Part shown: piece after piece, positions 7,451-8,927 of the stretch
Position numbering within the stretch: position 1 is the first letter of the stretch
How the letters are laid out: each line of letters opens with the position of its first letter
Source: a virus
IMG/VR virus record: IMGVR_UViG_3300047551_000534
Span: 1-29,996 of that record
DNA: 29,996 nt
Reading direction: 5' to 3' (one strand)
Program-made: the position numbers and the translations under genes
The notes under the pieces: model-generated
What the model saw: the letters and a program-made list of their open reading frames with translations, nothing else
What the model was told of the DNA's origin: nothing
Database searches by the model: none

Positions 7451-7618
7451 CTAGGTAGCACCACAACATTTACATAACTACCTAGACCCCCTCCCCCTAT
7501 GCTGCACTGCAACATATCCACAGGTTATACAGAGTTATCCACAGGATACAGCATGGTTATCCACAGCTTATCCACAGATATCATAGAGTTATCCACAGGT
7601 TATCCACAGGCTAGGTAG
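7451..7618. repeat. CTAGGTAG motif, three copies around the DnaA array
   Basis: The octamer CTAGGTAG occurs at 7451-7458 and 7611-7618, and its reverse complement CTACCTAG at 7478-7485. The outer copies bracket the DnaA-box array, and the first and second copies form an inverted pair 19 bases apart. Related TACCTAG and CCTAG sequences recur in the 20-base repeats to the right. They may be binding sites for one regulator; no binding protein is identified. Confidence 0.5.
7514..7610 (+). promoter_or_regulatory. Phased array of DnaA boxes (candidate replication origin)
   Basis: Five exact TTATCCACA boxes, the high-affinity DnaA box of many bacteria, lie on the plus strand at 7535-7543, 7557-7565, 7568-7576, 7589-7597 and 7600-7608. 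Their starts are 22, 11, 21 and 11 bases apart, close to whole helical turns, so all face the same side. A near match ATATCCACA (7514) and weaker TTATACAGA (7525) keep the same phase, giving an 11-base iteron-like array over about 95 bases. An AT-rich stretch lies 60-150 bases to the left. Same-strand, phased DnaA boxes beside AT-rich DNA are how bacterial origins and some plasmid and phage origins are built; recruitment of host DnaA is inferred, since no dnaA gene is in the window. Confidence 0.85.
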
Positions 7619-7772: not shown

Positions 7773-7788
7773 AGTTTCACGTGAAACA
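7773..7788. promoter_or_regulatory. parS-like palindrome (ParB-binding site)
   Basis: A perfect 14-base palindrome GTTTCACGTGAAAC (7774-7787) lies within a 16-base site that matches the broadly conserved bacterial chromosomal parS consensus (TGTTTCACGTGAAACA) at 15 of 16 positions, the first base being A instead of T. A chance match to this exact 14-mer in 30 kb is of order one in ten thousand. ParB of the chromosome-partitioning system loads and spreads from such sites, normally near oriC. No parA or parB is visible here, so any function would use the host protein. It sits about 165 bases from the DnaA array. Confidence 0.75.
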
Positions 7789-7869: not shown

Positions 7870-7898
7870 TTGACAATGCAAAAACAGCTAGGCACAAT
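7870..7898 (+). promoter_or_regulatory. Candidate sigma70-type early rightward promoter
   Basis: Perfect -35 TTGACA (7870-7875), 17-base spacer, then -10 CACAAT (7893-7898, 4 of 6 matches). It lies about 50 bases before the first rightward gene and is correctly oriented. It suggests that host RNA polymerase starts early transcription, consistent with no phage RNA polymerase gene in the window. Confidence 0.55.
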
Positions 7899-7950: not shown

Positions 7951-8199
7951 ATGAAAACCTTAATCCAATCAATCAAACAAGCCTACAAAGCACTAAAGCT
8001 AGTAACCATAGTAAAGAAAACATCAAACACTAGATTTATCACAGCATACACAAAGCAAGGTAGGATCAATGGGATTCTAATCAACAAAGGTATCCTAAGA
8101 TCAACGATCCGAGTACCAAAGCAAGGCGATCGCACTGTATGGAATACTAACATTAACTTCGTAAGGCATGAGAAAATTACAAGCAAGCAATATATCTAA
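7951..8199 (+). CDS. Small basic early protein (82 aa), unknown function
   Basis: First gene of the rightward transcript, 82 residues, strongly basic (many Lys/Arg) with an amphipathic N-terminal helix (LIQSIKQAYKALKLVTIVKK) followed by beta-type sequence (RFITAYTKQGRINGILINKG). A strong ribosome-binding site (AAAGGAG) lies 8 nt before the ATG. I do not recognise a family. Small basic proteins made first from an early phage promoter are often host take-over factors or nucleic-acid binders, but nothing here fixes a function. The hammerhead ribozyme begins 5 bases after its stop codon, so self-cleavage would leave this gene on the upstream RNA fragment, with part of the ribozyme as its 3' end. 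Confidence 0.75.
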   Translation: MKTLIQSIKQAYKALKLVTIVKKTSNTRFITAYTKQGRINGILINKGILRSTIRVPKQGDRTVWNTNINFVRHEKITSKQYI

Positions 8200-8204
8200 A
8201 CCTA

Positions 8205-8259
8205 GGACGAAACCCTGCCAAGTGTAGGGTCTATAGTTTAATACTATACTGACGAGTCC
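8205..8259 (+). ncRNA. Type II hammerhead ribozyme
   Basis: All parts of a hammerhead are present in the circularly permuted type II order, open at stem II. Stem II is GGAC (8205-8208) with GTCC (8256-8259). The GAA core is 8209-8211. Stem III is ACCCT (8212-8216) with AGGGT (8226-8230) and a 9-nt loop, including the obligatory A15.1-U16.1 pair. The cleavage triplet is GUC, with cutting predicted after C8231. Stem I is TATAGT (8232-8237) with ACTATA (8243-8248) and a 5-nt loop. The second core strand CTGACGA is 8249-8255. All 13 fixed core bases fit the consensus and all 15 pairs are Watson-Crick. Cleavage would leave the GP88-like mRNA with a 48-nt leader starting with a 5'-hydroxyl. Activity is inferred from structure. 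Confidence 0.92.
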
Positions 8260-8279
8260 AACTAACCTTTGAGGATATC

Positions 8280-8927
8280 ATGCTCAAATTATCAATCACT
8301 AGCAAGCTTGACGGGATTAGATCTTGGAGTCTACAAGCTTTAGATACATGTTCAGGCAGTATCAATGTTTATACTGGTGAATTAGTTGATGCCTGCGCTG
8401 GTTGCTATGCCACTACTGGCAACTACTTATACCCTAACGTAAAGGCTCCTCGTGAGCATAACAAGGAAGACTGGCAGCGTGATAGTTGGGTTGATGATAT
8501 GGTACAAGCCTTAGACTCTGATCGATACTTTCGTTGGTTCGACTCTGGCGATATGTACACAATCAAGCTTGCTGAGAAAATGCTTGAGGTCATGAAACGT
8601 ACACCTTGGTGTAAACACTGGTTACCGACTAGGATGTACAAGTTTCCTAAGTATCAATCAATCTTAGAACAAATGGATGCACTTCCGAATGTGGTTGTAC
8701 GTAGGTCATCTGATTCTGTTATTGGCGAAGTACTTGATGCACCGTGGTCTAGCACCATTGCTGAATCCTACAATGATGATAGCATCAGTGTATGCCCAGC
8801 GTATCAGCAAGGCGGAAAGTGCAAAGGTTGTCGGAAGTGCTGGGATAAATCAATCCCAGTTATCGGTTATGCTGCTCATGGCCAAAAGATGTCTAAAGTT
8901 ATCAGACTCAAACTTGCAAAGGGTTAA
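8280..8927 (+). CDS. GP88-family protein (215 aa)
   Basis: Resembles the phage/plasmid 'gene product 88' family: an opening ISxKL segment, an early Cys cluster (CAGCYATTGNY near 37-47), a conserved FRWFDSGDMY block near 80-89, and a Cys-rich end (CPAYQQGGKCKGCRKCWD near 178-195). The cysteine groupings suggest metal or Fe-S binding; the biochemical role of the family is not established to my knowledge. A GAGGAT ribosome-binding site lies just before the ATG. Its leader contains the 3' half of the hammerhead ribozyme, so the stability or translation of this gene is the most likely target of ribozyme processing. It is followed 2 bases later by a 28-aa membrane peptide. Confidence 0.75.
   Translation: MLKLSITSKLDGIRSWSLQALDTCSGSINVYTGELVDACAGCYATTGNYLYPNVKAPREHNKEDWQRDSWVDDMVQALDSDRYFRWFDSGDMYTIKLAEKMLEVMKRTPWCKHWLPTRMYKFPKYQSILEQMDALPNVVVRRSSDSVIGEVLDAPWSSTIAESYNDDSISVCPAYQQGGKCKGCRKCWDKSIPVIGYAAHGQKMSKVIRLKLAKG

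Follow-up and report, generated by a model that had tools for sequence, protein, structure and literature searches.

A type II hammerhead ribozyme between two putative early genes of a viral genome

We identified a complete type II hammerhead ribozyme at positions 8205–8259 of the window, the whole stretch of DNA analyzed here, which is an entire virus record of 29,996 bases. Comparative sequence analysis confirmed the element as a genuine type II hammerhead, with self-cleavage predicted after 8231. It lies on the coding strand in an 80-nt intergenic gap, 5 nt past the stop codon of a small gene and 20 nt ahead of the start codon of a GP88-family gene (gp88). The best explanation, which we consider probable, is that this hammerhead splits the early mRNA into single-gene units with hairpin ends.

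Results

The element carries a complete hammerhead core and three stems

The segments of the element follow one another in the type II order, with the structure open at stem II (Table 1), and stems II, III and I comprise 4, 7 and 6 bp around the core. Every position required of a hammerhead core (C3 U4 G5 A6 N7 G8 A9, G12 A13 A14, A15.1-U16.1 and H17) is present. An earlier, sequence-only reading had described a complete type II hammerhead whose stems are paired by Watson-Crick pairs throughout. Direct reading of the letters bears this out for every pair it named, and stem III extends two pairs further, one of them G-U. The 48-nt leader that it placed between the predicted cut and the ATG at 8280 also agrees with the distance on the sequence. 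The minimum-energy fold of the 8205–8259 stretch is the hammerhead structure; its energy (z = −1.42) is unremarkable and was therefore kept out of the evidence.

Table 1. Coordinates of the hammerhead and its neighboring features in the window
Feature	Position	Strand	Basis or remark
Promoter-like element TTGACAATGCAAAAACAGCTAGGCACAAT (TTGACA...CACAAT)	7870..7898	+	Pattern 410 nt before gp88
First early gene (putative), 82 aa	7951..8199	+	No Pfam match; slot holds at least five unrelated small genes in relatives
Type II hammerhead ribozyme, complete	8205..8259	+	Letters; independent covariance model
Stem II 5' arm, GGAC	8205..8208	+	Pairs with GTCC 8256–8259
Core GAA (G12 A13 A14)	8209..8211	+	Invariant among close relatives
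Stem III, ACCCTGC-caagt-GTAGGGT	8212..8230	+	Arms 8212–8218 / 8224–8230; paired in 15 relatives, covaries across phages
C17	8231..8231	+	Predicted cleavage 8231/8232 from the NUH hammerhead rule; C, A or T, never G, in relatives
Stem I, TATAGT-ttaat-ACTATA	8232..8248	+	Arms 8232–8237 / 8243–8248; would be the 5'-OH end of gp88 mRNA
Core CTGACGA (C3–A9)	8249..8255	+	Relatives have C or T at position 7
Stem II 3' arm, GTCC	8256..8259	+	Stem II pairing, comparative alignments
Linker and ribosome-binding site AACTAACCTTTGAGGATATC	8260..8279	+	Ribozyme-to-start spacing 20–24 nt in relatives
GP88-family gene, downstream cistron	8280..8927	+	PF17338, E = 4e-27

The genome is arranged divergently, with structural genes read to the left from ~7,060 and replication genes to the right from 7,951. 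The promoter-like element at 7870 recurs in most close relatives, there too ahead of the first gene, and is the presumed start of the early transcript. The term "early transcript", which the sequence-only reading used, is inferred from this promoter-like pattern and the divergent gene order. The position it assigned to the ribozyme, between a first small gene and a GP88 gene, agrees with the Pfam match and the gene order, and its class II (B12) RNR with a PF21995 match; the podovirus label is a suggestion from SU10/P22-like portal matches only.

Upstream of the promoter, five exact DnaA boxes (TTATCCACA) fall within 74 nt (7535–7608), where 0.36 would be expected per window, and similar clusters are present in several relatives; judging by these boxes, the region is a probable replication origin. 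A parS-like palindrome (AGTTTCACGTGAAACA) at 7773–7788 has one mismatch to the bacterial ParB site. The motif nGTTYCACGTGAAACn is retained upstream of gp88 in most close relatives, and the phage may bind host ParB near the putative origin.

Unrelated phages carry the same structure and support it by covariation

A strict hammerhead descriptor gave no match in 300 dinucleotide shuffles of the 30-kb window. The CTGANGA heptamer by itself occurs 46 times in the window, so the core motif alone proves nothing and the entire element was tested instead. We searched the 2.9 million viral contigs of IMG/VR for the core together with a 4-bp stem II, stems I and III not being demanded. The GGAC/GTCC and GGTC/GACC forms of stem II were each found in more than 120 stretches, both counts being lower bounds, and the mismatched GGAC/GACC form in a single one, a recombinant from the window element's own family. 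The form with core G5 changed to A (CTAANGA) was found in none of the 2.9 million contigs. Stems I and III both reach at least 5 bp in 287 of the 310 distinct pattern matches listed, against 1 after interior shuffling.

We built a covariance model on 50 unrelated phage hammerheads, leaving out the window element's family. This independent model gave the window element a score of 55.8 bits (E = 6e-15), against 8.7 bits for the runner-up. Among the 50 sequences, 11 of 16 pairs show double changes, with a covariation score of 0.718 versus 0.143 for shuffled sequences, and all seven stem I pairs covary.

Variation within the close family is more limited. Across 15 relatives the required core positions are invariant apart from N7 (C/T) and H17 (C/A/T), changes that hammerhead rules tolerate (NUH rule). 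Stem III is paired at every position in all 15, with one-sided changes, and stem I is invariant among close relatives. Covariation is confined to one stem II pair (A-U/U-A), which is broken in three of the 15, all recombinants, and does not exceed that of shuffles; the A-U to U-A swap is seen in 2/15 close-family rows and in 19/50 unrelated phage sequences. The compensatory changes that the sequence-only reading had called for are therefore weak among close relatives (one pair) and very strong across unrelated phages. Since within-family covariation is weak, the structural case rests on the wider phage class.

We also considered that the element might be a pair of hairpins acting as an intrinsic terminator or attenuator, with an incidental resemblance to a hammerhead. 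In relatives, this slot does contain hairpins that are rich in GC and have a short T run. Yet no T run follows any stem of the window element, and a hammerhead is what its core conservation, its stem covariation and its model score indicate, which makes this reading highly improbable.

A scan of 257 Gb of whole genomes returned 31 matches, most with proper stems; this is about the number estimated by chance for that pattern, and the scan was thus not used for abundance. Three of the loci (L341, L343 and L365), in Phycicoccus, Streptomyces and Eggerthellaceae MAG assemblies, have the same hammerhead and the same flanking DNA, an identity that suggests a shared contaminant or phage. Annotated phage records gave no DNA match to the window ribozyme, and the nearest GenBank GP88 phages (MW202484, MW202796 and AM24) are without it; the ribozyme-bearing relatives of this phage are metagenomic fragments throughout.

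Rfam misses a phage subclass with a 4-bp stem II

At gathering thresholds, Rfam 15 reported nothing in the window. In E-value mode its sole match there, at 14 bits, was to the wrong hammerhead permutation, and RF02276 gave no match in the window at E up to 10. Stem II is 2 bp long in the RF02276 consensus, where an AGCC tail follows it, and on some loci this model scores 26–34 bits against a cut-off of 37. Rfam 15 at threshold also gave no match in eight loci holding perfect hammerheads, and it missed 38 of the 38 ribozymes that our independent model finds in 16 other loci. As these others are missed too, the silence of Rfam is a limit of the model for this subclass and not a fault of the sequence. 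The covariance-model search proposed in the sequence-only reading has two outcomes: the phage-built model recognizes the element, and RF02276 leaves it under threshold. Because the Rfam type II model misses a large phage subclass at threshold, counts of hammerheads in viral genomes are too low.

The published type II consensus includes a pseudoknot between loop I and the 3' tail (PMC3088659). In the window, a 5-bp UAGUU/AACUA pairing of loop I with the tail is possible, but it overlaps stem I. Our sample for the pseudoknot and for flanking adenines was selected on a 4-bp stem II, so that its statistics describe that class and not type II as a whole: loop I–tail complementarity averages 2.60 versus 2.61 with swapped tails, not above chance, and an A stands immediately before stem II in 296/317 phage hammerheads and after it in 226/317. 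The window element has both. In 42 of these 317, ATCAG lies directly 3' of stem II; it could pair with the core CUGAU and thereby lock the cleavage product or compete with the active fold.

Genes are exchanged around a conserved ribozyme

We further examined the 23 contigs whose GP88 is most similar (85–99%; L001–L023); the counts among them are not phylogenetically independent. The ribozyme lies immediately upstream of gp88 in 12 of them, each time behind a small gene. In five contigs gp88 comes straight after the promoter (L001, L005, L014, L019 and L023), and none of these has the ribozyme, compared with 12 of the remaining 18. The other six are arranged otherwise: L011 has a GGGC-GAAA-GCCC hairpin, L020 a 3' remnant, and L007, L012, L016 and L021, in which a gene precedes gp88, have tightly packed or unrelated borders without the ribozyme (L012 has a hammerhead one gene further upstream). 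Across 83 GP88 loci, the independent model has matches in 13, all immediately before gp88 or one gene upstream.

The genes that flank the ribozyme in the close contigs belong to five unrelated families before it and three after it. Ribozyme identity is nevertheless 84–100% among contigs with unrelated flanking genes, and 100% between L002, L004 and L009, whereas the 150 nt upstream show ~50% identity, the level of unrelated sequence. In nine separately collected loci, what comes after the 82-aa gene is the hammerhead (7/9), a hairpin (1/9) or a degenerate linker (1/9). Hammerhead and hairpin borders have a common left flank, AACCAAGG.CGAAA, and a common right flank, AACTAACC. The gene swaps and the replacement by a hairpin are hints that bear on the ribozyme's job.

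Hairpins of the type AAGGGC-GAAA-GCCCTT, or close variants, occupy the ribozyme's slot in L007 (2651), L011 (2959), L012 (2522) and L015 (2272), and the type is also present in L028, L037 and L039; the hairpin is possibly a weak terminator or a guard of the mRNA end.

Such a pattern of identity and gene alternation would be left by a sequence kept chiefly as a shared joint for the exchange of early genes by homologous recombination, with cleavage secondary or lost in some lineages. The mismatched stem II of three recombinant relatives (GGTC/GTCC in L008, GGAC/GACC in L012 and L015) joins the left half of one allele to the right half of another, which indicates crossovers inside the element, and L020 retains the 3' end only; full activity is thus not kept everywhere. 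A recombination joint, however, needs no intact catalytic core, yet the family core is invariant, and no G5 mutant turned up among the viral contigs. The stems also covary freely across phages, which destroys sequence identity and hence homology. We therefore regard recombination as an unlikely main reason for the element's conservation.

A gene-border position is consistent with mRNA separation

Among 272 evaluable hammerheads, 185 have a stop codon upstream and a ribosome-binding site with a start codon downstream, at median distances of 3 nt and 23 nt. The same placement was found at 124 of 1460 random positions and at 14 hammerhead sites read on the opposite strand. Enrichment before one gene function was not seen among the 89 downstream proteins, which are diverse (DUF932 commonest with 6; ArdA 1, ArdC 1). 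Up to ten hammerheads were found per locus in other viruses with a relaxed descriptor; L154, L103 and L081 have five to seven in a row between small genes. In the 30-kb record one hammerhead only was found.

We propose that an early transcript from the promoter near 7870 would span the 82-aa gene, the ribozyme and gp88. Once the stem II 3' arm is transcribed, the RNA would fold and self-cleave at the 8231/8232 junction. The stem III hairpin and a 2',3'-cyclic phosphate would then form the 3' end of the upstream mRNA, which carries the 82-aa gene; gp88 mRNA would have the stem I hairpin and a 5'-hydroxyl at its beginning, 48 nt ahead of its start codon. Predicted folds of the two halves have these hairpins at the upstream 3' end and the gp88 5' start. 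A terminal hairpin generally impedes exonucleases that attack RNA from the 3' side, and RNase E enters poorly where a hairpin carries a 5'-hydroxyl. From this general knowledge of RNA decay we infer that the ends would be protected here. The polycistronic message would be split into single-gene units with hairpin-guarded new ends, and each gene's mRNA could decay and be translated independently, whatever small gene stands upstream. Of the three hammerhead permutations, type II appears to be the only one in which cutting places each new end on a closed hairpin, a property that would fit an element at gene borders. Cleavage in the cell and an effect on expression are what this model predicts. 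Against the model count the four contigs in which a gene precedes gp88 but the border has no ribozyme (L007, L012, L016 and L021) and the recombinants with a mismatched stem II.

Among the roles raised in the sequence-only reading, mRNA separation and stability fit best, and exposure of the ribosome-binding site finds no general support in the predicted folds. If the element hid the gp88 ribosome-binding site until cleavage turned translation on, openness of the SD-AUG region should rise on cutting. In the centroid fold, an ATATC near 8192 may pair with GATAT at the start region, and predicted openness does rise in L003, L010 and L017. It stays at ~0.5 before and after cleavage in the window, however, and is unchanged in L006, L009, L022 and L002 as well, and the upstream pairing partner sits in the gene that is swapped among relatives. 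Such a switch seems improbable to us.

Hammerheads can also ligate, and a real hammerhead whose cleavage is followed by ligation would yield circular or spliced early RNA; the several ribozymes per transcript in other phages would be in keeping with this. The 30-kb record has a single hammerhead, and a 2011 study sought such products and found none (PMC3088659). We give this outcome very little credence.

Discussion

Probable separation of the early message best explains a hammerhead that is conserved in its core, covaries across its class and stands at a gene border, as such ribozymes do in hundreds of phages. More broadly, and tentatively, type II phage hammerheads might be interchangeable gene-border modules, letting new early genes plug in behind a promoter while the fate of their mRNA stays separate from that of the following gene. 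The two hairpin-closed ends would then be what favors the type II arrangement, for which a plain GNRA hairpin can substitute, and the conserved A before stem II, together with the missing loop I pseudoknot, would be the signature of a large subclass whose tertiary contact Rfam does not capture.

The close family offers natural comparisons: depending on the contig, one and the same gene precedes an intact ribozyme, a recombinant with a broken stem II, a plain hairpin or a degenerate linker, and gp88 may or may not have a gene ahead of it. These make testable the question of phage hammerhead function, which has been open since 2011. A 2017 review still describes the role of phage hammerheads as open (PMC6155905), and a 2023 paper describes the reason behind their gene associations as unknown (PMC10085705).

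Self-cleavage in a bacterial mRNA leader is known from the glmS ribozyme, which leaves a 5'-OH. It differs from the window element in having another fold and a metabolite cofactor and in promoting mRNA decay; no ligand is suggested in the window.

The closest known systems are the bacterial and phage type II hammerheads (PMC3088659; RF02276), which share with the window element the core, the open stem II, the cleavage triplet and the coding-strand intergenic site. Perreault et al. (2011) reported them between phage genes and around single prophage genes and proposed, as we do here, the processing of long phage transcripts (PMC3088659). Arrays of the phage type cleave in vitro and in E. coli, and 4 of the 18 consensus-like hammerheads assayed failed to cleave (PMC3088659). 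Unlike RF02276 (Hammerhead_II), with its AGCC tail, the window element has a 4-bp stem II followed by AACTAACC and falls below that model's threshold.

The sequence-only reading had called the context notable; it is less unusual than claimed, as a 2011 study had already described hammerheads beside phage genes, an early-gene case in haloviruses HF1/HF2 among them (PMC3088659). This HHphage ribozyme likewise lies just before the start codon of an early gene (13 nt in HF1/HF2), and a transcript 5' end maps at most 3 nt from its cleavage site (PMC3088659). It differs in being described as a structural analogue of a core-variant hammerhead tied to salty habitats, in preceding a helicase gene and in having a haloarchaeal host (PMC3088659). 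The triple hammerhead at ardA of Agrobacterium tumefaciens also flanks a small phage-type gene and cleaves in vitro and in E. coli (PMC3088659), but has several ribozymes per transcript where the window has one, beside GP88. Type II hammerheads at phage gene borders have been known since 2011; the contribution of this family is a set of natural comparisons and not a further kind of element.
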